NCBI GenBank assembly: GCA_030706745.1
Contig: JAUZNX010000006.1
Span: 62,001 to 126,000, forward strand
Reading direction: 5' to 3'
Source of the DNA: Bacteroidota bacterium
Lineage (GTDB): Bacteria; Bacteroidota; Ignavibacteria; Palsa-1295
DNA: 64,000 nucleotides
Shown: piece by piece, positions 30,956 to 62,166 of the stretch
How positions within the stretch are numbered: position 1 is the stretch's first letter
Layout of the letters: each line of letters opens with the position of its first letter
Program-made: the position numbers and the translations under genes
The notes under the pieces: model-generated
What the model was told of the DNA's origin: nothing
What the model saw: the letters and a program-made list of their open reading frames with translations, nothing else
Database searches by the model: none

Positions 30956-32953
30956 ATGTTCGCCAATATTGCACAGCAAGGCCGGACCCTGTGGCCAGTG
31001 ACTGCCATCCTCGCCATGGTGATCTTTGGCACGCCCAACTCGATGTTTGGCGGTCAACGAGTCTCGCAATCAAGCGGAGTTTGGTCATCAGCGGCAACAT
31101 GGGCCGGAGGCATCACACCGCAAGCCGGAGATACTGTGATCATCGCCAGCGCGGATTCAGTTTATCTTGATTCCTCAAGTGCCGCGTTGAATGCGGTCAC
31201 CATCTACGGTCGATTCTCACTTGGCAGAGATACATTGTTCTTTAGTGCCTCGCCAAACGACACCCTCGTTCAAATATTCGGCACGCTCGATGCTGGCAGC
31301 GGATGGTTCGCGTTTCCTGCTCCAGTATCGCCACGACCTGTCATTCAGGTTGCAGCCGGTGGACTATTCCGCATGTCATCAGCGATTCCGTTTCCCACCT
31401 CCGGCATTTTCGATTCTCTTTCAAGTCCGCTCTTTGCCCTCGATGATTCGAGCACGTTCGAGTACTATTCACAGAATCTCGATCTGATTGACGTTTCCTA
31501 TCTTGCGAATAATCTTGTAGACCATTCGTATGCCAATCTCACGCTAAACGGCATGGACGCTTCGTTTCGGTCGAATCCGGTGCGAATTCGCGGAACGCTG
31601 CTGATCGATTCCGGCGCTTCCATCATCGCTGCCGCACGAGTCGCGTATGTACAGGGATTTGACACGCAGGTCGTCACAATATCAGGAGACGTTGTGAACC
31701 AGAATAGTGGCGAATCCGGCTCGGCGGGCGCAGGGCTTCGCGGCTGTGGCATGCAGTCATCGGGTTCTGAAGTATGGGTCTTCGATCGATTCACTGGCAG
31801 CAGTGGAAAAGACACATGCCATTGGTCCGGGCCTTCGCAACTTGGGAGTGTACTTGTGCGGAAAAATACCGTACTGAGTATTCGGTATCTCGACGATCTG
31901 CATTGCGATTCACTGGACATCCTGACACACCTCACCGAAGAAAATCCTCCATGCGGTGGTCATGTGATCGGCAAAATCTATTCGGAGTTTCCGAGAACGC
32001 TCGATGCTTCAAATCCTGTCGATAGTTTTTATGGCCTCGGGCTAACGATCCGCACCGGGACACTCCCTTACATTGGCCGCACCCGAGTCGTTCGTGTCAA
32101 TGGATACAAGCCGCCAGGTGCCCGTGATGACGCAAGGCCGGCGCTCCGATATTTTGTGATCACCCCAGGTGCTTCGCCACAGCAAGGCGCGCCGGACGAA
32201 ATGACCTTCCAACTCCATTGCGACGAGCTAAACGGCGCAAATCCAAACCACCTCCATTTCTGGCGCTCACGCGATCAAGGCCGGGCATGGGCATTTAGTG
32301 GAATCAGCAATTTCGATCCTGAGACCTTCGCTTTCGAGTGGGATACAACTGTGCTTGGCCTTGCCAATGATTCTGGCAGCTTTTACTGGATGCTATCCGA
32401 AGGATATACAGACCATCCTACGCCAATCGATCTTGTTAGCTTTAGCGCAACACGCGGTCCGGGCGGTGTCGATCTCACTTGGGAGACCGCGGCCGAGATA
32501 AATCTTGCAGGCTTCGAATTAGACCGAGGCTCGCGGATAGCCCCAGTCAACGTAGCCAGTTTCTTGTCCGATCGCAGCCTGATTTCCCAATCAAGATACG
32601 GTCAGCTGTATTCGGTTCTGGATACCTCTTCAGGTCCGATGCAATATGATCTCTACGAGGTTTCGAATGATGGGATCAGAACCTGGCTCGCCGAACGCTG
32701 GGTCCAGGCAACATCGGAAGCAGAGCCAGCCTTGGATCCGCAAATCTCCATTCAGGGGAAGCAGCTCTCAGTTGTCCTCGGGGCAAACCAGGAGGGACGC
32801 ATCGAATTGGACGATGTGATCGGTCGCCCGGAAATGTCCAGGGAGTTCACAGAGCAAATGCGAACAATAATGAGCCTCCCAGCCGGTGTCTATATAGCCA
32901 GGGTGTTCTGGAGAGGCGGTCAGGCCTCCCGGTTGCTGATCTTGGGTGAATAG
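30956..32953 (+). CDS. Large secreted protein with T9SS-type C-terminal end
   Basis: This 665-residue protein has a signal-like N-terminus (VTAILAMVIFGTPNSMFGG-Q). SGVWSSAATWAGGITPQAGD followed by TVIIASADSVYLDSSS is the G8-like opening ('W.....W.gG..P..gd.v.I..g') seen in many T9SS cargo proteins. The middle part is a beta-helix-like chain. From about residue 500 come PIDLVSFSATRGPGGVDLTW and ETAAEINLAGFELDRG, the immunoglobulin-like domain that often precedes a sorting signal. The last 60 residues (SLPAGVYIARVFWRGGQASR) look like a degenerate T9SS sorting domain. Probably a surface protein; function unknown. Confidence 0.65.
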   Translation: MFANIAQQGRTLWPVTAILAMVIFGTPNSMFGGQRVSQSSGVWSSAATWAGGITPQAGDTVIIASADSVYLDSSSAALNAVTIYGRFSLGRDTLFFSASPNDTLVQIFGTLDAGSGWFAFPAPVSPRPVIQVAAGGLFRMSSAIPFPTSGIFDSLSSPLFALDDSSTFEYYSQNLDLIDVSYLANNLVDHSYANLTLNGMDASFRSNPVRIRGTLLIDSGASIIAAARVAYVQGFDTQVVTISGDVVNQNSGESGSAGAGLRGCGMQSSGSEVWVFDRFTGSSGKDTCHWSGPSQLGSVLVRKNTVLSIRYLDDLHCDSLDILTHLTEENPPCGGHVIGKIYSEFPRTLDASNPVDSFYGLGLTIRTGTLPYIGRTRVVRVNGYKPPGARDDARPALRYFVITPGASPQQGAPDEMTFQLHCDELNGANPNHLHFWRSRDQGRAWAFSGISNFDPETFAFEWDTTVLGLANDSGSFYWMLSEGYTDHPTPIDLVSFSATRGPGGVDLTWETAAEINLAGFELDRGSRIAPVNVASFLSDRSLISQSRYGQLYSVLDTSSGPMQYDLYEVSNDGIRTWLAERWVQATSEAEPALDPQISIQGKQLSVVLGANQEGRIELDDVIGRPEMSREFTEQMRTIMSLPAGVYIARVFWRGGQASRLLILGE

Positions 32954-33160: not shown

Positions 33161-33191
33161 TTGACTTTCTCTTTTGGCGTGTCTATATTTA
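33161..33191 (+). promoter_or_regulatory. Candidate Bacteroidota-type promoter (TTG-N20-TATATTTA)
   Basis: TTG at 33161 is separated by exactly 20 bases from TATATTTA at 33184. This follows the known Bacteroidota -33/-7 pattern. Nearly the same box, with the same spacing, occurs in front of the secreted-protein genes at 35280 and 38636. It lies about 110 bases upstream of the gene at 33298. The rest of the 32954-33297 gap holds no recognised feature. Confidence 0.6.
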
Positions 33192-33297: not shown

Positions 33298-34977
33298 ATG
33301 CCCCAGCACGCGACGTTTGCCAAAACGCATATCAGCGCCCCCGCGACTGCCAGTCGAATTGCTCGACTTTTGGCAGTTGCGGTGCTGTATATGGTTATGG
33401 CTCAGGCGGCCGGCGCGCAGCTCATGATTAATAAGGGCGCAACGATTGTCACAAAGACTAACTCGTTCATGCAGGTCAATGGGGCGTATCAGAACCAGAC
33501 TGGTTCGATCGATGACTCTGGCATCGTTACGATCACAACCGACTTCACGAACAACAGTGCAGCCACGGCCGGAGGATCGGGATGGTACAACATTGGCGGT
33601 AACTTCACGAATGATGGCACATTCCAGCGTAAAACTGGCACCGTAAACCTCAACGGTACATCCAATCAGAATGTCGGTGGCGCAGTGATCACGACGTTCT
33701 ATGACCTTCAGTTTACAAATGGCGGCTCGAAGACCCTAACACAAAAGGAAATCGTTGACTCGGATGCGTATTTCACGAACGGCATTGTCTACACCACGCA
33801 GACCAACGTGCTGAACTTCACGATCAACGGCAATTGGGTTAACAATGCGGGTCTGCCCGTCGCACCTGCTGCCAGCTACGTCGATGGCCCATGTGAGAAG
33901 GACATGAACTCCACGAACCGCTTCTGGTTTCCAGTTGGTAAGAGCGGACGTGGCAATACCGGTGCAATCACTCCTCAGAGCGCGACAGCGACAACATATC
34001 GGATGCAGTATTTTAACTATCCGTATGTCAACACCACTTCGATCCAATCGCCATTGCAGCAAGTCAGCAAGATTCAATACTGGCACGCAGATATCGTAAC
34101 GCCGGCGACTGGCGGAGCGGATGCAATTGCACGGCTTTACTGGATTCCTGGCGATTATACGATGTCGGTGTATATGTCCACGATGTCGAACCTTGTAGTC
34201 GCGCGTTGGGATACGCTGGCGCCCGTCATTCCTGGCCCAACGCCGGCATGGGTTACGGCTGGTGTGAGCGCGCTCTCGCCGGGAGCGAGCTATCTGTCCG
34301 GATGGATCGAATCCGCAGTGGTTACGGCCGTTAAGTATGGCACCGCAATCATCAACAGGCCCTTTACAATCGCATCGCTTACCTCCGACAACTCCCTGCC
34401 CGTCGAAATGGGACCGTTCTCGGTAAAGCAAGTCGCGAATCACGTAGTACTCGATTGGAAGACATACAGCGAGATTCAAAGTCTCGGGTTCGAAGTGGAA
34501 CGTCGCCGCGAAGGCGAGCCATCGGTTTTGATCAAGAGCTTCGAACATGATTCATCACTGCTCGCCAAATCACCCTATGGGGCGACCTATCAAACGGTCG
34601 ACGGCGATGGCCTTGCCAATGGCACATATGTCTACGATTTGTATCAGATCGATGCCAATGGCACACGCACTCACTCTGGATCTCGAACGCTCGACTTCCA
34701 CCAGATTGCGATTCCTAGTTCGCTTTCGGTTGCGATCTATCCGAATCCGACATCGCAATTAGCGAACATTTCAATCGGGCTTGCTGAAGATGGACACGTA
34801 AATGCAATGCTCTATGATGCTAGCGGGAGACTTGTCGGGCAGATCGCGGACCTTAATCTCACTGCCGGCGAGCATCTCTTCAGTCAGGATGTCTCGCACC
34901 TCCCTGCGGGGATCTATCAACTGAGCATTACGACGGGCGACTCACACATTGCGAAGAGCATTGTTGTCCGTCGATAG
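33298..34977 (+). CDS. Secreted protein with T9SS type A sorting domain
   Basis: This 559-residue protein has a signal peptide (IARLLAVAVLYMVMAQAAGA-Q). The N-terminal third (about 35-200) consists of repeats such as TNNSAATAGGSGWYNIGGNF and NDGTFQRKTGTVNLNG, a beta-helix-like pattern common in T9SS cargo. A second part (about 370-470) is the immunoglobulin-like domain LPVEMGPFSVKQVANHVVLD. The last 80 residues contain SVAIYPNPTSQLANISIGL, ASGRLVGQI and LPAGIYQLSITTGDSHIAKS, a clear T9SS type A sorting signal. The protein is likely displayed on or released from the cell surface; function unknown. Confidence 0.78.
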   Translation: MPQHATFAKTHISAPATASRIARLLAVAVLYMVMAQAAGAQLMINKGATIVTKTNSFMQVNGAYQNQTGSIDDSGIVTITTDFTNNSAATAGGSGWYNIGGNFTNDGTFQRKTGTVNLNGTSNQNVGGAVITTFYDLQFTNGGSKTLTQKEIVDSDAYFTNGIVYTTQTNVLNFTINGNWVNNAGLPVAPAASYVDGPCEKDMNSTNRFWFPVGKSGRGNTGAITPQSATATTYRMQYFNYPYVNTTSIQSPLQQVSKIQYWHADIVTPATGGADAIARLYWIPGDYTMSVYMSTMSNLVVARWDTLAPVIPGPTPAWVTAGVSALSPGASYLSGWIESAVVTAVKYGTAIINRPFTIASLTSDNSLPVEMGPFSVKQVANHVVLDWKTYSEIQSLGFEVERRREGEPSVLIKSFEHDSSLLAKSPYGATYQTVDGDGLANGTYVYDLYQIDANGTRTHSGSRTLDFHQIAIPSSLSVAIYPNPTSQLANISIGLAEDGHVNAMLYDASGRLVGQIADLNLTAGEHLFSQDVSHLPAGIYQLSITTGDSHIAKSIVVRR

Positions 34978-35191: not shown

Positions 35192-35222
35192 TTGCTTTTT
35201 CTCTGGCTTGTGTCTATATTTG
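35192..35222 (+). promoter_or_regulatory. Candidate promoter (TTG-N20-TATATTTG)
   Basis: TTG at 35192 and TATATTTG at 35215, 20 bases between them, located 58 bases upstream of the gene at 35280. Same arrangement as 33161 and 38545. Confidence 0.65.
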
Positions 35223-35279: not shown

Positions 35280-36821
35280 ATGGTCTCCCTGATAGACCTG
35301 GGGATTCACATTCCCGTTGGGCTCCGCCGTGTCTTGAAGATATGGCACGTGGCCACCGTGTTCGGATTCGCTGGACTGCTCATGCTGGAGCTTTCAACGG
35401 CTGCTTTCGCGCAGAACGTCGGCATCGGAACGTCGACGCCGGATGCAACTGCATTGCTTGACCTGACTTCCACTTCGCAGGGCTTGCTCGTGCCAAGATT
35501 GACCAGCGCTCAAATGTTTGCCGTTCCTTCACCCGGCACCGGCGATCTCATTTTCAATACGTCCCTCACTACGTTCTATTTTTATGACGGTTTAGCATGG
35601 ATCCCAATGACGGGGACCGGCTGGCTATTATCGGGGAACGGTGGTACGATAGCCGGTACAGATTTTCTTGGGACAACAGATAATGCGGACCTGGTCTTCA
35701 AGGCAAACGCCATGGAGGGCATGCGGCTCAGCACATCGCAAAATCTCGGCGTCGGTACGGCCACGCCTGCTTCCGCGCTCCACACCGTTGCATCCGGAGC
35801 GATGACAACGGACTATACAGGAAACCTCCTGACCAATGTGGCGACATCCTCGACCGCTTCAATTACCAAATACGGAATGGACATTCTTTCGAGCGGCACG
35901 TGGAATGGCGCATCGGCGACCAATATCGGGCTGCACACGAATGCAACTGGCGGCACGACAAATTACTCGGCCATTTTCGAAGGCGGTAACGCCGGCATCA
36001 ATACAACAGCACCCGCAACATATATGGATGTCAGTGGCGATGCTTCGATCCGATACTCCTCCTATTCGGCCTCAAATGGAGTCAACAATGACATCAATAT
36101 CGGAACCTCGAGTTTTGTCCGCCTTACCGGTCCAACGGCTGACTTCTCGGTCACCGGCGTTGCCGGCGGCGTGGATGGGAAGGTCCTCATTCTATTCAAC
36201 CCGACCAACCAACTATTTACGATCTCCAATGAAAACACTGGTTCCGTGGCCGCAGACCGGATTTGGACGTTCAACAGCACTGGCGACATCGTCGTCGATG
36301 GCAAAGGGGCGGTCAAAATGATTTATAGCGCGCCGGACAGTCGATGGATTGTGCTCAGTTCGACCACAGTCTCAACGTCCAGCACGGGACTGATCTTCGC
36401 CAAGAAGCCAGCAGATGAAAGTGTCAGAAGCTCCACAACGCTGCAAAATGATAACGACCTGCAATTGCCGATCTCGGCGAATGATTCAATGATCGTGGAA
36501 GGATATATCCATTATCATAACACCGGCTCCGGCAGTTTGAGAATGGCATTCACCATTCCAACCGGAGCAAGTATGGACATCGCAATTTACACCGACGACG
36601 TAATCCAACCCCCGCCAGAAACGTGGACGCTCACTGCCGGCGGCGCATCAACCGGTGACATGGGCATGAACGGTACCGACGTTCCTATTCATTTTTATGG
36701 CATGGTCATCAGTGGTGCAAACGCTGGAACGATTCAAATCCAGTGGGCGCAAGGAGTTTCGTCATCGACCCCGACAACCTTCAAGGCAAAATCCTATATC
36801 CGTGGGACACTGATCCGCTGA
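35280..36821 (+). CDS. Secreted tail-fibre-like protein, array member 1
   Basis: This 513-residue protein has a signal peptide ending STAAFA-Q. The mature start NVGIGTSTPDATALLDLTST, then GLLVPRLTSAQM, is common to all five array members. GWLLSGNGGTIAGTDFLGTT with NADLVFKANAMEGMRL follows: the module discussed in the findings. The central part has SVTGVAGGVDGK and SNENTGSVAADRIWTFN. The C-terminal domain (about 375-513) begins KKPADESVRSSTTLQNDNDL and ends SSTPTTFKAKSYIRGTLIR, which matches a domain found in many phage tail and structural proteins. No T9SS domain and no membrane anchor are seen. Function unknown; fibre or adhesin is inferred. Confidence 0.7.
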   Translation: MVSLIDLGIHIPVGLRRVLKIWHVATVFGFAGLLMLELSTAAFAQNVGIGTSTPDATALLDLTSTSQGLLVPRLTSAQMFAVPSPGTGDLIFNTSLTTFYFYDGLAWIPMTGTGWLLSGNGGTIAGTDFLGTTDNADLVFKANAMEGMRLSTSQNLGVGTATPASALHTVASGAMTTDYTGNLLTNVATSSTASITKYGMDILSSGTWNGASATNIGLHTNATGGTTNYSAIFEGGNAGINTTAPATYMDVSGDASIRYSSYSASNGVNNDINIGTSSFVRLTGPTADFSVTGVAGGVDGKVLILFNPTNQLFTISNENTGSVAADRIWTFNSTGDIVVDGKGAVKMIYSAPDSRWIVLSSTTVSTSSTGLIFAKKPADESVRSSTTLQNDNDLQLPISANDSMIVEGYIHYHNTGSGSLRMAFTIPTGASMDIAIYTDDVIQPPPETWTLTAGGASTGDMGMNGTDVPIHFYGMVISGANAGTIQIQWAQGVSSSTPTTFKAKSYIRGTLIR

Positions 36822-36843
36822 ACAGTCTTTCGAACTTCGAACT

Positions 36844-38394
36844 ATGATTGCATTCTTCTTCGCCAAACCTCAACACCGGGCGCCTCTACAATGCCTGTTG
36901 GCATTCACATTTACCGTTATGCTTGCGCTAGCTCCAAACCTGCGCATGCTCCGTGCACAGGGGAATGTTGGGATCGGGACCGTGGCTCCCGATGCAAGCG
37001 CCTTACTTGACCTAACAAGCATCACTCGAGGCCTTCTGGTGCCGAGGATGACGCACGCGCAAATGAATGCTGTGACCCTTCCCGCAACTGGCCTGCTGGT
37101 CTACTGTACCGATTTCGTCAGCGCAATCAGTCCTGCAACATTTTACTATTATGATGGAACGGCCTGGGTACCATTTCTCGGAACCGCATGGCAACTCCTT
37201 GGAAATAGCGGGACCATTGCTGGGACGAACTTCGTCGGGACAACGGACAATGCTGATCTCGTCTTTAAAACCAATGCACTCGAAGGCATGCGACTGACCA
37301 CTGCGGGTAATCTTGGAATCGGAACTGCCGTGCCCACCTCGAAGCTGCATACAGTGGCTTCGGGCGCAATGACCGCTGACTACACAGGCAATCTGCTTAC
37401 GAATACGGCGACATCTTCGACACCCTCCATCACAAAATACGGAACGGACATTCTATCGACCGGGACATGGAATGGGACATCCGCCACGAATGTGGGTCTC
37501 CATGTCAATGCCACCGGCGGTACCACGAACTACTCCGGGATATTTGAAGGCGGCAATGTTGGGATCAATACTACCGCGCCGGCAACCTACCTCGATATTA
37601 ATGGCGATCTTGCTACCCGTTATTCTTCGGTTTCGGCTTCGAACGGAGCCAACAACAATCTCACAATCGGCACATCGAGTTTTGTCCGGCTAACGGGACC
37701 AACGGCCTCCTTTTCGGTCACGGGCATTGCCGGCGGCGTCGATGGTAAGATGCTCGTACTATTCAATGCCACAACACAGCAGATCACAATCTCGAACGAG
37801 AGCGCGAGTTCGCTGGCTGCGAACAGGATCTGGACACTGAATAGCACCGGCGATATCGTCATCAGCGGGAAGGGCGCCGTGAAACTGATATACAGCGCAG
37901 CCGATAGCCGATGGATCGTCATCAGCTCCTCCACAACCGTTTCCACATCCACAACCGGCGTCATCACTGTCAAGAAACCCGCGGATCAAAGTATCTCGAA
38001 CTCGACAACCTTGACAAACGACAACAATCTGGTCATTCCCATCAACGCAAATGATTCGATGGTAGTCGAAGGATATTTGCATGCTAATGTCGCCTCAACA
38101 ACTCCTCAAATTCGGCTCGCGTGGACGATCCCCACTGGGGCTTCAATGGATATCGGGATCTACGTCGATGATGTCAGGTTGGGATCACAAGAGACGTTCA
38201 TTCTTACGTCGAGTGGCACCTCGACCGGAGCCATCCAACTAAACGCCGGAGATATTCCGATCCATTTTTGGGGCGTGGTGGTTACCGGCTCGACTGCAGG
38301 CAACATCCAACTCAAATGGGCGCAAGGGGTATCTTCTGGAACGCCGACGACACTAAAAGTAAAATCCTACATGCGAGGGTACTATATCCGATGA
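36844..38394 (+). CDS. Secreted tail-fibre-like protein, array member 2
   Basis: This 516-residue paralogue follows member 1 by 22 bases. It has a signal peptide ending RMLRA-QG, the start NVGIGTVAPDASALLDLTSI, the module AWQLLGNSGTIAGTNFVGTT with NADLVFKTNALEGMRL, and the same C-terminal domain (KKPADQSISNSTTLTNDNNL ... TTLKVKSYMRGYYIR). Members 1 and 2 agree along almost their whole length, so they result from a tandem duplication, but many synonymous differences show it is not recent. Function unknown. Confidence 0.7.
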   Translation: MIAFFFAKPQHRAPLQCLLAFTFTVMLALAPNLRMLRAQGNVGIGTVAPDASALLDLTSITRGLLVPRMTHAQMNAVTLPATGLLVYCTDFVSAISPATFYYYDGTAWVPFLGTAWQLLGNSGTIAGTNFVGTTDNADLVFKTNALEGMRLTTAGNLGIGTAVPTSKLHTVASGAMTADYTGNLLTNTATSSTPSITKYGTDILSTGTWNGTSATNVGLHVNATGGTTNYSGIFEGGNVGINTTAPATYLDINGDLATRYSSVSASNGANNNLTIGTSSFVRLTGPTASFSVTGIAGGVDGKMLVLFNATTQQITISNESASSLAANRIWTLNSTGDIVISGKGAVKLIYSAADSRWIVISSSTTVSTSTTGVITVKKPADQSISNSTTLTNDNNLVIPINANDSMVVEGYLHANVASTTPQIRLAWTIPTGASMDIGIYVDDVRLGSQETFILTSSGTSTGAIQLNAGDIPIHFWGVVVTGSTAGNIQLKWAQGVSSGTPTTLKVKSYMRGYYIR

Positions 38395-38544
38395 GTTTTG
38401 CCAGGTCCCGCGAAACCACCAATTTTGCCCGACAACTGTCCATAAGTGAGACAAATGTGTACCACCCTGAGACGATGATTCTATGGGCGAACCACTAAAC
38501 TTATCTTTTCATCCAAAAGCCGTAGAATTAGTTACAAAGAAGGA

Positions 38545-38575
38545 TTGACTTCGGCTCTCAAAGCGTCTATATTTG
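38545..38575 (+). promoter_or_regulatory. Candidate promoter (TTG-N20-TATATTTG)
   Basis: TTG at 38545 and TATATTTG at 38568 with 20 bases between them, about 60 bases upstream of the gene at 38636. The TTGACTT...GTCTATATTTG wording is almost the same as at 33161. It suggests that members 3 to 5 have their own transcript. Confidence 0.65.
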
Positions 38576-38635
38576 GGAAGTGCGGATGAGTCTTGGTAGT
38601 GGACCATTTCCGCCAAATGGTAGGATACTTTGCTA

Positions 38636-40738
38636 ATGTTTGCGTTTGGATGCGCCCGAAGGGACCCGAGCCGGAGCTTTGCCTCGGCCCTATGCGCGCG
38701 AGCAACAGTTGCCTTGGTCTGTTGCACCATACTGGCGTGTTTGGAGCCCACGCTCGTATCTGCTCAGAACGTTTCGATCGGCACCGCGACTGCAAATAAC
38801 TCGGCCCTTCTCCATCTCGAGTCGACTTCAAAGGGTTTGTTGATTCCCAGAGTGACCACCACTCAAATGCAGGCGATCGCCTCGCCTGCAACCGGGGACC
38901 TGGTTTATAATACTACTGGAGGCACGTTTTACTACTATACTGGCTCCTTCTGGTCGCCTCTAGCGGGTAGTGGGTGGTCGCTTACAGGCGATGCCGGCAC
39001 GAGTGCCTCGACGAATTTCCTTGGTACGAAGGATTCCGTCGATCTCGTGCAACGGACCAATAATCATGAGCGCGCGCGTGTCCTCTCCAACGGAGACGTA
39101 GCGCTGACAAACACCACGAACAAAGCCGGCTCTCTGATATTCTATGAGCCCTCGGGCTCCGGGACATTATACAGTTCCTTCCAGGCCGGCAATCAGGATA
39201 GCACAATCCATTACATTCTTCCGCCCACAGATGGCATTAGCGGCCAGGCCCTCGATGATAGTCTTGGGACCTTAGGCTGGAAGACTTTTGGCACGGTCGG
39301 AGGAGGGTTTGGCGATACACTCTGGAAACGCGGAAGCGGAACGGCATCGCTCTATTCACTCGGTACACTTAATCGAACTAACGGAAAATGGTCGATCGCA
39401 TCGACCGAAAACTGCTCTGGCGGCAGCGAAGCTTCCTCTGTATTTGGCGACTCCAACAGTAGCAGCGCCAAGTATGGCTGCGTTACCGGTGGATCGAACA
39501 ATAGCGTTTCCGGTAACGGCGGTAGCGTCGTCCGCGGAGGAGCGTGGAATTCTTCCGGGTCGCAAAACACGATGATCGTTGGAGGTCTGGCAAACCAGGC
39601 ATCTGGACAGGACTGCGTCATTCTGGGCGGCGATTCCAATCACACCAGCGGCGACAACTCCATTATCATCAACGGAGCAGACAATACCTTCGCCAGCAAC
39701 AATAACTTGGTTTTTGGATATAATGCCCATCCAACCGGATCGAACCAACTTATTTTTTATCCCCCAACGTCGACTGCGATTCGAACCGGAATTCAGAATA
39801 CGAGCCCGGCCGAGGCCATGGATGTGACCGGCAACGTTCGCCTCTCACAGGCCTTGGTTCCGAATGGATTATCAGGCAGCGCCGGCTTGACTCTAAAATC
39901 GGCGGGGACCGGTTCGCCGCCCACATGGGGGACTGTCTCAATTCCCACAACCAGTAACTGGTCAACGTTGGGAAACTCCGGATCCAGCCCGCCAACAACG
40001 TACATCGGCACGACAGATTCGATGGCTTTCGTCATACGAACGAATGCAACGGAACGCGCCAGAATTCGCTCAACTGGATTCGTTGGTGTTGGCACCACGA
40101 CTCCGGTTCATCAACTTCATATCGTCAGTACGAGCACGACGGACGAAACTGCCGCGGCATTTGGTGGATCGACTGGCACTACCTCATCCGAATCGGTCGG
40201 TGTCTGGGGCCGAGCAGATAATACGAGTTCATCAAACACGGGCACGATCGCAGTCCTTGCCACAGGCAATGGTGCTACGAGCGCAGGCTCCACCAATGTC
40301 GCCCTCCAAATTTCGCAGGCAGAGTTCGCCATGGGCCGTACATCGCAGAACCCATCGCCGGGCACCGCTACGGACGCCGCTGCTTCAGGCGCTGCATACA
40401 GCCAGGAAGGCCCTTCCGGTGTCATTCAACTCTCGATGGGAAATGATCTGACGACGCTGCCTCCGACTGCTGGCGTGTTTCAGGATTTGGGAAACGTCAC
40501 GATCAACAATCGCTACATTACTTCTTCGAGCATCATTCTCGTCGGAGTAGTCGATAAAATCAACGGCGGCGGCAACCCTGATCCCAGAAACTCCATCTAT
40601 CGAGTCGATGTCGAGAGCCGCGCGTCCGGCTCATGCACGTTGCGCGTCTCGATGATCCCGTTTGTATCGGACACTCATGTGTACCCGGCGTCGAATTATA
40701 TTCGCATCGGATACATCGTAATCAATCCAGGCAGATGA
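38636..40738 (+). CDS. Secreted tail-fibre-like protein with YadA-head-like repeats, array member 3
   Basis: This 700-residue protein starts at the ATG at 38636; a TTG two codons earlier is the alternative. The signal peptide ends EPTLVSA-Q, followed by NVSIGTATANNSALLHLEST. It carries two copies of the module: GWSLTGDAGTSASTNFLGTK and NWSTLGNSGSSPPTTYIGTT. Between them are YadA-head-like repeats of about 15 residues (GGSNNSVSGNGGSVVRGGAW, MIVGGLANQASGQ, VILGGDSNHTSGD), which in YadA-type adhesins form a beta-roll. The C-terminal domain runs from EGPSGVIQLSMGNDL to SNYIRIGYIVINPGR. Its stop overlaps the next start (ATGA). Function inferred as adhesive fibre. Confidence 0.7.
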   Translation: MFAFGCARRDPSRSFASALCARATVALVCCTILACLEPTLVSAQNVSIGTATANNSALLHLESTSKGLLIPRVTTTQMQAIASPATGDLVYNTTGGTFYYYTGSFWSPLAGSGWSLTGDAGTSASTNFLGTKDSVDLVQRTNNHERARVLSNGDVALTNTTNKAGSLIFYEPSGSGTLYSSFQAGNQDSTIHYILPPTDGISGQALDDSLGTLGWKTFGTVGGGFGDTLWKRGSGTASLYSLGTLNRTNGKWSIASTENCSGGSEASSVFGDSNSSSAKYGCVTGGSNNSVSGNGGSVVRGGAWNSSGSQNTMIVGGLANQASGQDCVILGGDSNHTSGDNSIIINGADNTFASNNNLVFGYNAHPTGSNQLIFYPPTSTAIRTGIQNTSPAEAMDVTGNVRLSQALVPNGLSGSAGLTLKSAGTGSPPTWGTVSIPTTSNWSTLGNSGSSPPTTYIGTTDSMAFVIRTNATERARIRSTGFVGVGTTTPVHQLHIVSTSTTDETAAAFGGSTGTTSSESVGVWGRADNTSSSNTGTIAVLATGNGATSAGSTNVALQISQAEFAMGRTSQNPSPGTATDAAASGAAYSQEGPSGVIQLSMGNDLTTLPPTAGVFQDLGNVTINNRYITSSSIILVGVVDKINGGGNPDPRNSIYRVDVESRASGSCTLRVSMIPFVSDTHVYPASNYIRIGYIVINPGR

Positions 40739-42813
40739 AGAACGTCCGCAACATCCTCATCTTTCTCGTTCTGGCCGGATTATTTGGCCTCTCGAGGGCG
40801 CATGCCCAGAGCAGCAACGTGGGGATTGGTACGACCGCTCCGGACGCGAGCGCATTGCTGGACCTGACAAGCATCTCGCGCGGCCTGCTAATCCCTCGGA
40901 TGACGGAAGCGCAAAAGGTTGCCATATCTTCGCCAGCTACCGGACTGATGATCTATCAGACCGATAATGCAACAATCTCACCGTATGCCGGACAGACGCC
41001 AACGTTCTGGTACTTCAATGGCACGACGTGGGTACCCTTTCTCAGTGCGGGTTGGCTCGTGCTCGGAAATTCCGGGACGAGTGCCAACACGAATTTCATC
41101 GGCACTCTCGACTCGGTCGACTGGGTCATCCGCACCAACAATGCCGAGCGGTTGCGAGTCTACGCTGGCGGCAACGTGGCGCTAACGAACGCGGATAACA
41201 AGGCAGAGGAATTTCGCTTCTACCAACCTTCCGGCACAGGATCCCTCTATTCTGGATTTAAAGCATCGCCAAGGACAACCAACTCCGTCACCTATACCTG
41301 GCCTTCGGCAGATGGTAACGGAACAAATTACATTCTTTGTACGGATGGATTTGGTAACCTCTCGTGGAGAGGATTTGGATCAGCCGGTGGTGGTGGTCTC
41401 GATACATTCTGGTCACGCGGAACAGGACGATTCTCGCTGATCGGTCACGGCGCCGGATGTACGGCTTCCGGCGATTATTCGATCACCGATGGTTTTGATA
41501 ACTGGGCCTCTGGTACTGCCTCCGTTGTCTGGGGCGAAAACAACATTGGTTCGGGTTATGGCTCGGTCATCTCCGGAGGTGCGAGCGATACCGCAAGTGG
41601 TAACTACTCCACGATCGGTGCCGGCAGCAATAATTCTTCGACCGGCTCATATTCTTCCGTGGTAGCCGGGCAATATAACAGTGCTTGCGGTCCGTATGCT
41701 GTGGTCGTTGGTGGTACGAGTAATACTGCATGTGGAAGTTATGCGACGGTCTTGGGCGGTACAAACAATAATGTCAGCGGCAATTATTCATTGGCCTTTG
41801 GGATCGGCGCACTCGTTTCGACGGATAACACTGTTGTGTATTATGCTTCCGGTAATACGCCCGCAAAAGTTGGTGTAGGTACGCAAACTCCGGCGGAAGC
41901 ACTCGATATCGTTGGCAATCTGCGTTTTTCCGGCGCACTGATGCCCAACGGTCTTGCCGGGACACCCGGCTATATTCTGCAATCCGCCGGCGCGAGTACA
42001 CCGCCGGTCTGGGCATCCGCCGGAAGCCTTGGTGCCTGGAGCACATGGGGCAACAGTGGTACGACTCCCCCGTTCAATTATATCGGCACGAGCGATGCGC
42101 AGGCATTCGTCTTCAAAACGTATGCGACGGAGCGAATGCGTATTCTCTCGACCGGACAAGTTGCGATCAACACGACTTCAACGACGCATCAATTACACTC
42201 CCTCTACTCCGGAACAACCGATGAGACGGCCGCCGTCTTCGGGCAGGCCACCGGCGCCACTTCGAGTCAAGTTGTCGGCGTATGGGGAAGTGCTTCAGGA
42301 ACGGGTACTGGCTCGATCGGAGTGCTCGGAACCGGCAATGGCATCACATCCGCCGGCTCGACGAACGTCGCCCTGCAAGTTAATGATGGCGAGGTCACGA
42401 TGGGTCGCACCACCGAGACTTCCAGTTCGTACAGCGTGGTGGAATCCGCCGCAACCGGCACAGCATATTCTGCGCAAGGTCCGAGCGGTGTGATCGAGCT
42501 GACACTTGGATCAGGCGGCAACCTTTCGACGGTCGCACCAAATTCGGGTGTCTTCCAGAACCTTGGGAAGATCACGGTTAGTAATCGCTATTGCTCAGCA
42601 TCGAGCATTGTGATCGTGAATGTCGTTTCCAAGAGCGATGACGGCGTCGCCCCCGACTGTAAATTGGCAGAGTATTTTGCCGACGTCAGCAACCGTACCA
42701 GCGGAGGATTCGACGTTCAGATCGGTATGATTCCGACCACTACAAGCGCTTCGAATTATACAACTTCGGATAAGATCCGTCTGTCATATCTCATAGTCAA
42801 CCCAGGGAGATAA
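40735..42813 (+). CDS. Secreted tail-fibre-like protein with YadA-head-like repeats, array member 4
   Basis: This 692-residue protein starts at 40735, overlapping the previous stop by four bases. The signal peptide is MKNVRNILIFLVLAGLFGLS, ending AHA-Q. Two module copies are GWLVLGNSGTSANTNFIGTL and AWSTWGNSGTTPPFNYIGTS. The repeats between them are very regular: SVISGGASDTASGNYSTIGA, GSNNSSTGSYSSVVAGQYNS, VVVGGTSNTACGSYATVLGG. The C-terminal domain is the same type as in member 3 (YSAQGPSGVIELTLG ... DKIRLSYLIVNPGR). The stop codon overlaps the ATG of the next gene by one base (TAATG). Confidence 0.7.
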   Translation: MKNVRNILIFLVLAGLFGLSRAHAQSSNVGIGTTAPDASALLDLTSISRGLLIPRMTEAQKVAISSPATGLMIYQTDNATISPYAGQTPTFWYFNGTTWVPFLSAGWLVLGNSGTSANTNFIGTLDSVDWVIRTNNAERLRVYAGGNVALTNADNKAEEFRFYQPSGTGSLYSGFKASPRTTNSVTYTWPSADGNGTNYILCTDGFGNLSWRGFGSAGGGGLDTFWSRGTGRFSLIGHGAGCTASGDYSITDGFDNWASGTASVVWGENNIGSGYGSVISGGASDTASGNYSTIGAGSNNSSTGSYSSVVAGQYNSACGPYAVVVGGTSNTACGSYATVLGGTNNNVSGNYSLAFGIGALVSTDNTVVYYASGNTPAKVGVGTQTPAEALDIVGNLRFSGALMPNGLAGTPGYILQSAGASTPPVWASAGSLGAWSTWGNSGTTPPFNYIGTSDAQAFVFKTYATERMRILSTGQVAINTTSTTHQLHSLYSGTTDETAAVFGQATGATSSQVVGVWGSASGTGTGSIGVLGTGNGITSAGSTNVALQVNDGEVTMGRTTETSSSYSVVESAATGTAYSAQGPSGVIELTLGSGGNLSTVAPNSGVFQNLGKITVSNRYCSASSIVIVNVVSKSDDGVAPDCKLAEYFADVSNRTSGGFDVQIGMIPTTTSASNYTTSDKIRLSYLIVNPGR

Positions 42814-44972
42814 TGCGAATTACGAATTACGAATTACGAATGACGAATGGCTGGCAGCACTTGTGGCTGGCACCGCGCATGGCGGTCGCCTCTGCGAGAA
42901 TGCTCGTTCGCCGTTCCGCATTTGTCATTCTCCTATTCATCCTTCAGCATTCGACATTCGTCTTTTCGGTTCGGGCACAGGGCAACGTGGGAATCGGCAC
43001 CACGTCACCCGATCCGAGCGCGTTGCTTGACCTGACCAGCACTTCGAAAGGATTGCTTGTGCCACGCATGTCCGAGGCGCAGAAGAACGGGATCGCATCG
43101 CCTGCGACAGGATTGCTTATCTTCGAAACGGATACCGCGACGACCGGGGCTTACGCCGGTCAGGCTCCGACATTCTGGTATTATAATGGCTCTTCCTGGA
43201 TCCCGTTCCTCGGTGGCGGTTGGCTCTTGCTCGGTAACTCTGGCACCAACCCAACCGGCAATTTTATCGGCACGAAGGACTCCGTTGATTGGGTCATCCG
43301 GACGAACGACACGGAACGCGTACGGATCTATTCCGGCGGCAATATGGGCCTCATTAATAATAACAATACTGCGGAAGAGCTGCGATTGTTTATGCCATCC
43401 GGGTCAGGGTCATATTACACAGGCTTCAAGGCCGGCGTTCAGACTGCGTCACCCAATTACATTTGGCCTCCATCCGATGGCCAGGCAACAAACTGGGTCC
43501 TCTGCACGGATGGATTTGGAGATTTGACCTGGAGAGGATTCAGCTCGAGTGGTGGTGGCGGTATTGACACGATGTGGTCGCGCGGTACCGGACATCTTGC
43601 ACTCTACGGCCATGGCGCAGGCAATGTCGCCTCCGGCGACTATTCAATTACGAGTGGCTACTTCAACGCGGCATCCGGAACGGCAACCGTCGTTTGGGGC
43701 GAACACAACATCGCTTCGGGATACGCATCCGACGTAGCTGGCGGATTTTATGACACAGCTTCCGGCGCATATAGTACGATCGGAGGTGGCAGTAACAATT
43801 CAGCTACCGGCACCTACGCCTCGGTGGTCGCAGGCCAATACAATACGGCGTGTGGCACCTACTCTATCGTCGTCGGGGGCAACAACAACAGCGCCTGTGG
43901 CACCTACTCAACGGTATTGGGTGGCAGCTACAACAGCGTTACGGGCAATTATTCAATGGCCTTTGGCCAGGGATGCAACGTGACCACGGATAATACCATC
44001 GTGTATTATTCTTCCGGAGCTACCCCCATGAAACTAGGCATTGGCAACTATGCGCCCGCTGAAGTACTCGATGTCACCGGGAATATTCGGTTCTCCGGTG
44101 CACTCATGCCTAATGGACTAGCCGGAACGACCGGTTATCTCCTCACTTCTACAGGGTCGAATTCACCACCAGTCTGGGATTCGACCGGAAATTTCTACTG
44201 GAGAACCTGGGGCAACGCCGGAACGACAGCCTCCTACAATTATCTCGGGACGAAGGACGCACAGCCGCTCGTCTTTAAGACTGCCAATACGGAGCGAATG
44301 CGTATTCTCTCCACCGGACAAGTCGCGATCAATACGACGACGTCGGCGCACCAATTGCGTTCACTGTACACAGGTACAACCGATGAAGTCGCTGCCATCA
44401 TGGGCGAGGCTACCGGTGCTACACTGAATGCCGCTGTCGGCACTTGGGGAAACGCGTCGGGTGCGGGCACCGGTTCGATTGGAGTGCTCGCAACTGGCAA
44501 CGTCAACACGAGTGCAGGCCAGACCAACGTCGCGCTGCAAATTAATGATGGCGAGTTCGCAATGGGTCGAACAACAGAAGCGCCAGGGGTCGGAACGACC
44601 GTCGAGGGCGCAGCCAGCGGGACGGCCTATTCCGCGCAAGGACCCAGCGGCGTGATCGAACTCACGCTTGGCGGCGGAAACCTTAGCACAGTTGCGCCCA
44701 CCGCCGGCCTCTTCCAAAATCTTGGTACCCTCACGATCAACAATCGATATGCTTCTGCCAGCAGCATCGTGCTCATCAGCGTGCTTTCAAAAATTGACGA
44801 TGGCAATGCGCCGGATTGCCGATCAGCGGTATACTTTATCGACGTTAATAATCGAACTACTGGAGCATTCGACATCCGGGTCAGCATGATACCGACGATC
44901 ACCAGTGGCTCCAACTATTCGACATCGGACAAGATCAGAATCGGATATGCCATCATTAATCCAGGAAGATAG
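42813..44972 (+). CDS. Secreted tail-fibre-like protein with YadA-head-like repeats, array member 5
   Basis: This 719-residue protein is the closest relative of member 4. Its first 60 residues are made by a heptad repeat element (42817-42960): MRITNYELRMTNGWQHLW..., then the hydrophobic FVILLFILQHSTFVFSVRA-Q, a usable signal peptide. After the cut comes NVGIGTTSPDPSALLDLTST. The two module copies are GWLLLGNSGTNPTGNFIGTK and YWRTWGNAGTTASYNYLGTK. YadA-head-like repeats follow the order GSNNSATGTYASVVAGQYNT, ACGTYSIVVGG, ACGTYSTVLGG. The C-terminal domain ends DKIRIGYAIINPGR. A strong terminator follows at 45061. Function unknown. Confidence 0.7.
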   Translation: MRITNYELRMTNGWQHLWLAPRMAVASARMLVRRSAFVILLFILQHSTFVFSVRAQGNVGIGTTSPDPSALLDLTSTSKGLLVPRMSEAQKNGIASPATGLLIFETDTATTGAYAGQAPTFWYYNGSSWIPFLGGGWLLLGNSGTNPTGNFIGTKDSVDWVIRTNDTERVRIYSGGNMGLINNNNTAEELRLFMPSGSGSYYTGFKAGVQTASPNYIWPPSDGQATNWVLCTDGFGDLTWRGFSSSGGGGIDTMWSRGTGHLALYGHGAGNVASGDYSITSGYFNAASGTATVVWGEHNIASGYASDVAGGFYDTASGAYSTIGGGSNNSATGTYASVVAGQYNTACGTYSIVVGGNNNSACGTYSTVLGGSYNSVTGNYSMAFGQGCNVTTDNTIVYYSSGATPMKLGIGNYAPAEVLDVTGNIRFSGALMPNGLAGTTGYLLTSTGSNSPPVWDSTGNFYWRTWGNAGTTASYNYLGTKDAQPLVFKTANTERMRILSTGQVAINTTTSAHQLRSLYTGTTDEVAAIMGEATGATLNAAVGTWGNASGAGTGSIGVLATGNVNTSAGQTNVALQINDGEFAMGRTTEAPGVGTTVEGAASGTAYSAQGPSGVIELTLGGGNLSTVAPTAGLFQNLGTLTINNRYASASSIVLISVLSKIDDGNAPDCRSAVYFIDVNNRTTGAFDIRVSMIPTITSGSNYSTSDKIRIGYAIINPGR
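42817..42960 (+). repeat. Palindromic heptanucleotide element that encodes a signal peptide
   Basis: The left arm has three GAATTAC units then GAATGAC and GAATGGC; the right arm (42924-42960) has period-7 units such as GCATTCG and ACATTCG. It forms the 5' end of array member 5, starting four bases after the ATG at 42813. The encoded residues contain the signal peptide's hydrophobic core. Confidence 0.7.
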
Positions 44973-45060
44973 TCAGAACCATGATGCGATAATATCGGAG
45001 TTCAGGCAAAGAGTGGTAACGGGCGCGTGAGATAAGAAGAAACGTGCCTAAGCCAATGAG

Positions 45061-45103
45061 GAGAGGGGTGGCCCGTGGGGGGACCGCCCCTCATTTTTTT
45101 TAT
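45061..45103 (+). terminator. Rho-independent terminator of the five-gene array
   Basis: A 9-bp stem (GAGGGGTGG / CCGCCCCTC, one G-T pair) with a G-rich loop is followed by eight T residues, 90 bases after the stop of array member 5. Confidence 0.88.
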
Positions 45104-45160
45104 CAAAGGCAAACGGAAGACCTGCGTGCTCGGAAATGTATCGAGTGGCTACGTTTCATT

Positions 45161-45194
45161 TTGTCGCTCCCTCCTCTCCGCTGTCGTATCTTTG
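45161..45194 (+). promoter_or_regulatory. Candidate promoter of the beta-barrel gene
   Basis: TATCTTTG at 45187 fits the Bacteroidota -7 box TAnnTTTG, and TTG at 45161 lies 23 bases before it, more than the 20 in the other three candidates. TCGTATCTTTG is very like the boxes before 8605 and 13675. The start codon at 45220 is 26 bases downstream. Confidence 0.45.
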
Positions 45195-45219
45195 TTTCAT
45201 CCACTTACTCGTCAATTCT

Positions 45220-45933
45220 ATGAAAGACTTCGTGTATAAGTCCCTGGGTCTTCTCGCGTTGAGTCTATCGAGCTTACTCCTTTCGGGAAATATCGCAAGC
45301 GCGCAGCAATCAAATGTGCAAAATGACTCGGCGTTTCATATCGGGCTCGGCGTTTCGATTACAACGAACGTAGCTGTCCTTGGATCGGAGAACAATCGGG
45401 ATCCATTTTCCGATGTGACACTCAGCGCGGTCAACTTCCTGATTCCGATGCGCTTCTCGGCGTTCAAGATCGAACCAGAGATCGGCTATGTTTCCTCATC
45501 CTATTCGAGTCCACTGTACAATGGTTCTGGCAGGGACGTGACCTTCGGCCTTCTTCACTTTGGCTCTGGCTTTTATTATCTCATTCCAGTCGCTTCGGGT
45601 GCCAGTGTGTACATAGGGCCAAAACTTGGGATCGAAGCGTATAACGAAACGGATAAGGCTACCGACAGCCTCTTCAGCTCTGGAATCCAGATAAGCACAG
45701 ATAACTACTCGCGAACCGATTTCTTTGCTGGCCTTGTCTTCGGCGGAGAGTATTTCTTTTCGCGTGCATTTTCGATGGGTGTCGAAGCAGAGGTCGAATA
45801 TCTGAACTACGGCACGCTGACGAGAACCACGACGATCACTCCAGCATCCCCATCAACATCGCAGAGCGCACCCAGTCCAACCGGTCACCAGCTGAACACC
45901 AAGGCAGCAGCGATTGCCCGCATCTATTTTTGA
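45220..45933 (+). CDS. Outer-membrane beta-barrel protein
   Basis: This 237-residue protein starts at the ATG at 45220, which follows the candidate promoter and gives the signal peptide ALSLSSLLLSGNIASA-QQ. The mature part has alternating hydrophobic/polar strands typical of a small barrel: HIGLGVSITTNVAVLG, NFLIPMRFSAFKIEPEIGYV, GLLHFGSGFYYLIPVASGAS, VYIGPKLGIEAYN, TDFFAGLVFGGEYFFSRAFS, and a C-terminal AAAIARIYF ending in Phe, as usual for the last strand. A family such as OmpA-like or porin cannot be named. It is convergent with the Fe-S gene at 45944. Confidence 0.7.
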   Translation: MKDFVYKSLGLLALSLSSLLLSGNIASAQQSNVQNDSAFHIGLGVSITTNVAVLGSENNRDPFSDVTLSAVNFLIPMRFSAFKIEPEIGYVSSSYSSPLYNGSGRDVTFGLLHFGSGFYYLIPVASGASVYIGPKLGIEAYNETDKATDSLFSSGIQISTDNYSRTDFFAGLVFGGEYFFSRAFSMGVEAEVEYLNYGTLTRTTTITPASPSTSQSAPSPTGHQLNTKAAAIARIYF

Positions 45934-61746: not shown

Positions 61747-62166
61747 CTACCTAAGCTCCACAGAAGGATTCTTCCGTTCCGGAAGTATCTGCACGTGCTC
61801 ATATTTCAATATCTCACTATCGGAAGTCACAAGAGGCGCGTCCAGAATTCGAGACGTTGCGACAATGATTCGGTCCGCCGGATCGCGATGGAACGCGCCA
61901 GGAAGACGCGTCGATTCGATGATAATCTCACGTGATAGGTCGACGACAGAAATTGACGACTCGTCAAGCGCCATTTGAAACCAGAGCTCGATTGGCAACG
62001 GAAGATCGATCCGGGCTCGGCTGGCAAGGAGCGCAACTTCATGCAGCGAAATCACACTAACCGCAAGAGGCTCTTCCGTCTCTTCGAGCAGCGATCGCTG
62101 TGAATGCGATAGCAACTCGGGAAGATTCGCCAGCCAACACCAGATATGCGTGTCAAGCAGGATCAT
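61747..62166 (-). CDS. PIN-domain toxin, VapC-like
   Basis: This 139-residue protein begins at the ATG at 62166, so that MILLDTHIWCWLA places the first catalytic Asp as in VapC. SVISLHEVALLASRARIDL with the conserved Glu, and DPADRIIVATSRILDAPLVT with further Asp residues, complete the PIN active site. It would cut RNA. The start overlaps the antitoxin gene by 14 bases, as usual for toxin-antitoxin pairs. It is preceded by the antitoxin in the operon order. Confidence 0.85.
   Translation of the reverse strand: MILLDTHIWCWLANLPELLSHSQRSLLEETEEPLAVSVISLHEVALLASRARIDLPLPIELWFQMALDESSISVVDLSREIIIESTRLPGAFHRDPADRIIVATSRILDAPLVTSDSEILKYEHVQILPERKNPSVELR

Follow-up and report, generated by a model that had tools for sequence, protein, structure and literature searches.

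Locus organization

The 64,000-nucleotide stretch of DNA analyzed here (the window; positions 62,001 to 126,000 of contig JAUZNX010000006.1) lies on contig 6 of a Bacteroidota genome of 3.81 Mb with a completeness of 99.5% (host genome, G000). It carries an array of five genes for fibre-like proteins, termed m1 to m5, which is closed by a terminator. The first two proteins are named type A and the last three type B, and within type B an alpha form (m3-like) is distinguished from a beta form (m4- and m5-like). All positions below are those of the window.

35280..36821, + strand: m1, type A fibre-like protein of 513 residues (open reading frame, paralogy, relatives)
36844..38394, + strand: m2, type A fibre-like protein of 516 residues (open reading frame; as a profile with m1 it matches MAT fibre structures)
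38630..40738, + strand: m3, type B alpha, 702 residues from a TTG start; alternative ATG at 38636
40735..42813, + strand: m4, type B beta, 692 residues; ATGA overlap with m3
42813..44972, + strand: m5, type B beta, 719 residues counted from the first ATG; true start uncertain
45058..45102, + strand: intrinsic terminator after m5 (hairpin and T-run)

An earlier note on this DNA had described five same-strand paralogues with coupled starts, which the open reading frames (ORFs) and pairwise identities of 45 to 68% confirm (m1/m2 68%, m4/m5 68%, m3/m5 45%). The reported spacing was found as well: m1 and m2 are 22 bases apart, m3 and m4 share four bases (ATGA), and m4 and m5 share one. Only the start of m5 is uncertain, because the ATG at 42813 would imply a 55-residue signal peptide and lies inside a short repeat; later ATGs located 26, 65, and 86 bases past the m4 stop would lead to signal peptides of 46, 33, and 26 residues, which are more usual lengths. 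The array also ends in the strong terminator previously described, a hairpin within 45048-45106 with a folding energy of −26.5 kcal/mol and a T8 run behind it, and 2 of 200 shuffled sequences folded equally well.

The repeat at the m5 start (42813-42961) is a GAATTACGAATTACG repeat, and imperfect inverted copies of it occur in the signal-peptide codons. Signal peptides of the VIRHSSF/VICHLSF kind were also found in G001 b2, G003 b1, and G005 c44b2, relatives from the seven same-genus genomes compared (G000-G006). It looks as if a dispersed palindromic repeat had served as a donor of signal-peptide sequence in m5 and its relatives.

Domain architecture

The proteins follow a common order, with a Q-rule signal peptide, a base domain of approximately 75 residues, a beta-helical shaft, a roll (type B only), and a C-terminal tip, which is one of two domain types and invariably closes the chain. 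Types A and B have the N-terminal part in common and differ in the remainder. Signal peptides are present on all five proteins; A-Q or S-Q stands just before the base domain in each of the array proteins listed (22 of type B, 11 type A-like), and neither group has a conserved cysteine at the cleavage site as a lipobox would require.

35412..35636, + strand: base domain of m1 (profile)
36958..37200, + strand: base domain of m2 (profile)
38762..38992, + strand: base domain of m3 (profile)
40810..41070, + strand: base domain of m4 (profile)
42978..43226, + strand: base domain of m5 (profile and model; nearest folds phage Mtd N-terminus and phage tailspikes)
36396..36818, + strand: type A C-terminal domain of m1
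37960..38391, + strand: type A C-terminal domain of m2, similar to Streptomyces phage proteins
39479..39757, + strand: beta-roll of m3 (Pfam, LbR_Ice_bind match)
41560..41841, + strand: beta-roll of m4 (Pfam, LbR_Ice_bind match below cut-off)
43599..44042, + strand: YadA-like beta-roll of m5, residues 263-410 (profile, model, and fold comparison)
44628..44969, + strand: type B tip of m5, residues 606-719, candidate H-type/discoidin-like lectin jelly roll

The assignment to a surface-fibre type of protein is supported by profile matches to solved trimeric fibres. The type A profile built from m1 and m2 matched the MAT fibres 8ojn (E 1.5e-4) and 8ond/Bd2133 (E 5.2e-4), and the type B profile matched the UspA1 head 3pr7 (E 5.3e-25) as well as the MAT fibre 8ojn (E 2.8e-4). 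A beta-helical shaft as in the solved MAT structures was matched by sequence profile only. For type B, a YadA-like head is additionally indicated by the structure model, whose roll superposes on the YadA-like head of BoaA (Z 15.0) and on CbpF (Z 14.9). The division into two C-terminal domain types, m1-m2 against m3-m5, with the YadA-like roll confined to m3-m5, agrees with what had been noticed before.

Structure models were calculated for full-length m5 (10-sequence input) and for the base domain, the latter with a pLDDT of 90.9. The consensus of 48 base-domain sequences reads (x)GIGTxxPxxSAxLDxxSTxKGxLxPRMTxAQKNAIxSPATGLLVYxTDxxxGFYYYxGxxW. Its best fold match was the N-terminus of phage Mtd, at a low score (Z 5.1, 1.9 Å over 43 residues), followed by pieces of phage tailspikes or hyaluronidases; phage fibre or tail proteins made up 18 of the 23 rows in this fold listing, all at low scores. 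No convincing match was found in Pfam and none in NCBIfam; certain PHROG families, in part bearing the name tail fiber or virion protein, matched a few members each. A literature search returned no title or displayed abstract naming the base domain or the locus.

The two tips differ in their relatives. For the type A C-terminal domain, the matches were PHROG 24062, a family of unknown function, and Streptomyces phage proteins from 13 records, one of which bears the annotation minor tail protein. Its type B counterpart (alignment A6, 20 sequences) reaches the last residue in every C-terminally complete ORF carrying it, in ORFs of about 700 to 3,419 residues. In the m5 model, where the tip part has a pLDDT of about 60-78, residues 606-719 superpose on 4q56, 2ce6, 2ccv, 2cgy, 6cxb, 6cl5, and 2w94 with Z 5.7-6.2 and root-mean-square deviations of 3.0-5.0 Å. 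These structures, the sole entries listed for that region, are Helix agglutinins, discoidin I, and the R1 pyocin fibre; discoidin, agglutinin, and the R pyocin foot are described in PMC6363177 as one lectin fold carried on trimeric fibres. The same tip closes a 1534-residue ORF without a base domain (L094:3547-8151 on contig 6 of the host genome, about 54 kb before the window start), and long ORFs with a terminal type B tip were also seen in G001, G002, G005, and G006.

A base-domain class across Bacteroidota

The base-domain profile matched 72 of 296 sampled Bacteroidota genomes (E <= 1e-6). Of 128 ORFs from the fetched loci with an uncut N-terminus, 119 have the domain beginning inside their first 100 residues, and a small-residue-Q site was present in 80 of 83 such proteins outside the genus; the three exceptions belong to loci L048 and L059, which are titled Deltaproteobacteria and Geobacteraceae. 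Runs of two to eight same-strand base-domain ORFs were found at 16 of the listed loci outside the genus. The C-termini vary: in a set of 74, 16 matched Fib_succ_major, 11 Peptidase_S74, 7 Lcl_C, and 2 Laminin_G_3 (multiple matches per protein being possible), and not one carried a signal of the type IX secretion system (T9SS) at E <= 0.001. On account of this survey, m1 to m5 are placed in a wide class with a common base, an exchangeable tip, and no known anchor.

Further members of this class were observed in passing. Three loci of other Bacteroidota (L051, L057, and L072) hold tandem arrays of seven to eight base-domain proteins, several of which end in a YWSS...RCIK-type sequence resembling Fib_succ_major, a layout we take to be reminiscent of phage Mtd. 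A second genus (G009) contains two adjoining short type A-like proteins of 348 and 351 residues (L104:5350-7453) without the type A C-terminal domain and with near-equal mature lengths of 308 and 309. In a 937-residue protein from a Bdellovibrio sp. metagenome-assembled genome (L066:8495-11305), the Bacteroidota base domain sits in mid-chain (E 4e-29), which suggests that fibre modules may have been exchanged between phyla.

Inheritance and transcription of the type B unit

The locus is syntenic in all seven same-genus genomes, and its copy number changes, as expected of the expanded locus proposed earlier. Type B copies number 3, 2, 4, 2, 5, 3 plus one cut by the contig end, and 3 in G000 to G006, respectively, which amounts to a range of two to five, while type A copies range from zero to three; type A genes occur in three of the seven, the three of G006 lying on another contig. 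These relatives were also searched for orthologues that are single-copy and either have a known anchor or are cytoplasmic, and none were found.

When the 22 complete type B proteins were placed in a tree, the cut G005 copy being left out, alpha (10) and beta (12) clades emerged with 100/100 support each. Alpha is directly followed by beta in 10 of 10 cases, in three of them by two betas if the cut copy is counted. With the start of each gene taken as the first one at −4 or further downstream, gaps inside the units ranged from −4 to 42 bases, compared with 383 and 457 bases for the two unit-to-unit gaps and 235 and 363 bases for the two gaps from type A to type B. Type A shows the same pattern, an m1-like gene followed by one or two m2-like genes, with weaker tree support. 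As several branches within beta are weak (81/78), only the retention of the unit is claimed, not each historical step.

Sequence divergence is distributed unevenly along type B. Alpha and beta share on average 33% identity across the roll and 49-59% over the other parts; among the betas, the mean identity reaches 60% for the roll and 75% for the tip. The idea of a fibre with different tips consequently stands for the two C-terminal types but does not hold within type B, where the tip is conserved and the roll varies most, unlike simple tip-swapping. Fixed differences between alpha and beta amount to 12 in 652 compared columns, and 6 of them fall into the 113 columns of the tip. Mature lengths are 654-661 residues for alpha and 660-666 for beta. 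Alpha and beta distances correlate (Mantel r 0.67, p 5e-5; 9 of 10 units, the contig-edge unit being left out), which is not used as proof because the correlation is confounded by shared descent.

Promoter-like boxes divide the array into at least two parts.

33161..33191, + strand: promoter-like TTG-N20-TATATTTA before the T9SS-cargo gene
35192..35222, + strand: promoter-like TTG-N20-TATATTTG before m1
38545..38575, + strand: promoter-like TTGACTT-N16-TATATTTG, exact, before m3

These TTG-N20-TATATTTG/A boxes at 33161, 35192, and 38545 account for 3 of the 34 genome matches to TTGACTT-N16-TATATTTG with up to two mismatches, whereas a reversed control gave only 2. The impression from the window that the box is specific to the locus was rejected on this count, which marks it as a general promoter type. 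Such boxes also stand ahead of the leading type B gene in G001, G002, and G004, and in G001 they additionally precede the cargo gene and the leading type A gene. With boxes before m1 and m3 and with such boxes kept in relatives, types A and B are assigned to separate operons, that is, at least two predicted transcription units with Bacteroidota-type promoters rather than one five-gene transcript. The five-gene array of the earlier note and its tight m3-m5 coupling remain valid, with the array read as at least two units.

Probable surface fibres and their possible chain composition

Judged from sequence, the locus probably encodes chromosomal, Sec-exported fibres that resemble phage receptor-binding proteins and would serve as surface adhesins. 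Each chain is expected to trimerise; the base domain would remain close to the outer membrane, while the tip at the C-terminus would project and bind glycans. Types A and B would be made from separate operons, and the inherited type B unit consists of one alpha and one or two betas. This mode of inheritance suggests that alpha and beta probably work together.

Several results speak against this interpretation. The model of full-length m5 is of poor quality (mean pLDDT 47.1), and Foldseek returned no PDB match at E <= 0.001 for the m5 or the base-domain model, the matches of the latter lying at E 1 or worse. The MAT profile E-values are modest, Pfam YadA_head did not match the five proteins, and the Pfam lectin families, including H_lectin, matched none of the 20 type B tip members. 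Furthermore, Z values of about 6 (tip) or about 5 (base) can reflect a common arrangement, and shared descent alone can keep alpha beside beta. With Z near 6 and Pfam silent, the evidence for the tip is moderate, and the modeled type B tip is put forward at that level as a candidate lectin jelly roll of the discoidin/Helix/R-pyocin kind.

The simpler version of the fibre reading is that every protein forms its own homotrimer and that alpha and beta are two co-expressed adhesins with different targets, and we lean slightly towards it. Solved MAT fibres are described as symmetric trimers of one chain (PMC10769870), and the accumulation of half of the fixed alpha/beta differences in the tips is what two specificities would produce. 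However, the strict alpha-then-beta order in all ten units, which are gained and lost whole, is slightly more than co-expression needs, and the near-equal mature lengths fit in-register packing, although common descent explains them too.

A more far-reaching version appears rather unlikely to us. Here, each type B operon would yield one obligate heterotrimer (alpha-beta-beta, with one beta gene used twice or two beta genes). Its single shaft would bear lectin tips of two kinds, with a rapidly changing roll in mid-fibre. Type A, with its m1-like and one or two m2-like proteins, would form a second such fibre, and the base domain would act, independently of any T9SS signal, as a hitherto undescribed module for docking to the outer membrane that is widespread in Bacteroidota. 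A mixed fibre would be expected to show a pair of conserved tip versions within an operon and chains of near-equal mature length, as seen here. The hetero-assembly suggested earlier is likewise in line with the conserved alpha-beta units, but these do not demonstrate physical mixing. If true, the units would be, to our knowledge, the first known trimeric bacterial adhesin possibly built of different chains.

Export, anchoring, and neighboring genes

The absence of a T9SS signal, an autotransporter barrel, and a lipobox from the five proteins, already remarked on in the earlier note, was borne out by Pfam and profile scans: no T9SS signal, S74 domain, or cleavage-site cysteine was found on them, and no YadA-type membrane anchor matched any of the five in Pfam at E <= 1. 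As SprA is encoded in the host genome along with no fewer than 147 T9SS signals that exceed the cut-off (150 of 267 candidates scored), the missing signal on all five is telling.

33298..34977, + strand: T9SS-cargo protein gene, 559 residues, directly upstream of the array (Por_Secre_tail E 5.4e-12)

The neighboring cargo gene opens a second route to the surface, in which the T9SS would deliver the fibres although they bear no signal themselves, the adjoining cargo protein acting as their carrier or tether. We rate this as unlikely. All seven same-genus genomes have the cargo gene directly upstream of the locus, in G009 it is found between type A-like genes, and the host encodes SprA and numerous T9SS signals. 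Across the phylum, however, Por_Secre_tail was not clearly commoner near base-domain genes (14 of 83) than far from them (6 of 44), and the 74 base-domain C-termini were devoid of T9SS signals. The near set comprised 83 plus-strand neighbors of 125 listed; CHU_C occurred five times in it and was not among the 25 families shown for the far set. A phylum-wide neighbor link between the base domain and the T9SS was not supported by this control.

It is less probable still that the proteins are periplasmic and never reach the surface. The five indeed lack a known outer-membrane export signal, but the long fibre architecture and the lectin-like tip are at odds with such a location, and MAT fibres, whose anchor is likewise unknown, are surface displayed (PMC10769870).

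The four Pfam-scanned neighbors encode a T9SS cargo, an outer-membrane barrel, a G8 protein, and a PKD protein. A role as anchor partner was weighed for the beta-barrel gene downstream (45136-45933) and given up, since a homologue turned up at this site in one of six same-genus relatives (G003). The G8-domain protein (30956-32953, 665 residues) shares a C-terminal region with the T9SS-cargo gene product, and a G8-domain gene occurs near the cargo gene in 5 of 7 same-genus genomes. A heterodisulfide-reductase-like gene, named from its sequence, follows downstream in 6 of 7; it was not within the stretch taken from G006.

Two further explanations were rejected. Ice-binding or ice-recrystallisation beta-roll proteins are very improbable: LbR_Ice_bind exceeded its cut-off on one of the three type B proteins (m3, 32.8 against 30 bits; m4 and m5 below) and the type B profile matched 3ult (E 2.1e-7), but the UspA1 head scored far better, the roll is the least conserved part, unlike a regular ice-binding face, and type A has no roll. 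A prophage tail-module remnant, the least credible option of all, could draw on the Streptomyces phage records and on the base domains matching PHROG tail or virion families, but is contradicted by signal peptides on all five proteins, synteny in seven genomes, neighbors of the kinds named above, and two viral-contig scans that confirmed no relative.

Comparison with known systems

The class is more widespread and more orderly than the earlier note could see, and it is one of MAT-like, phage-fibre-like surface adhesins. If true, MAT-like fibres with exchangeable tips would be a common surface toolkit of Bacteroidota and not peculiar to predatory Bdellovibrio, and this toolkit would rest on a base domain that is unnamed in Pfam and NCBIfam and lacks the known T9SS signal. 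Cultured Flavobacteriia possess the same base domain, so the questions of anchor and export can be tested there.

The array proteins resemble MAT fibres in their signal peptide, the conserved domain right after it, the beta-helical shaft by profile, the exchangeable C-terminal tips, and the lack of a known anchor; S74 also appears among the tips of other members of the base-domain class. They differ in being clustered in operons, in the YadA-like roll in mid-chain, and in the size of the conserved domain, approximately 75 residues here compared with a beta-rich MAT domain of about 130. Peptidase_S74 had no match in the whole host genome, and an S74 fibre was rejected on this ground. An hhalign comparison of the base domain with the first 175 residues of one Bdellovibrio protein (P0001), whose MAT identity is inferred, gave a probability of 0.1%; P0001 has a different N-terminus and carries the base domain in mid-chain (E 4e-29).

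Trimeric autotransporter adhesins such as UspA1, BoaA, and YadA share the YadA-like beta-roll with type B, but the array proteins lack their C-terminal membrane anchor and carry a predicted adhesive domain in its place. Phage Mtd is nearest to the base-domain fold, at low scores, and the type B tip is nearest to the R1 pyocin foot and to discoidin/Helix lectins; in contrast to Mtd and the tail fibres of pyocins and phages, the array is chromosomal, its products would be Sec-exported, and no virion is involved. A diversity-generating retroelement was rejected, as no reverse transcriptase (RVT_1) was found in the host genome at E <= 0.001. With the T9SS cargo of Bacteroidota, finally, the array proteins have the Q-rule signal peptide and an expected role as surface adhesins in common, while the T9SS C-terminal signal sets that cargo apart from them.

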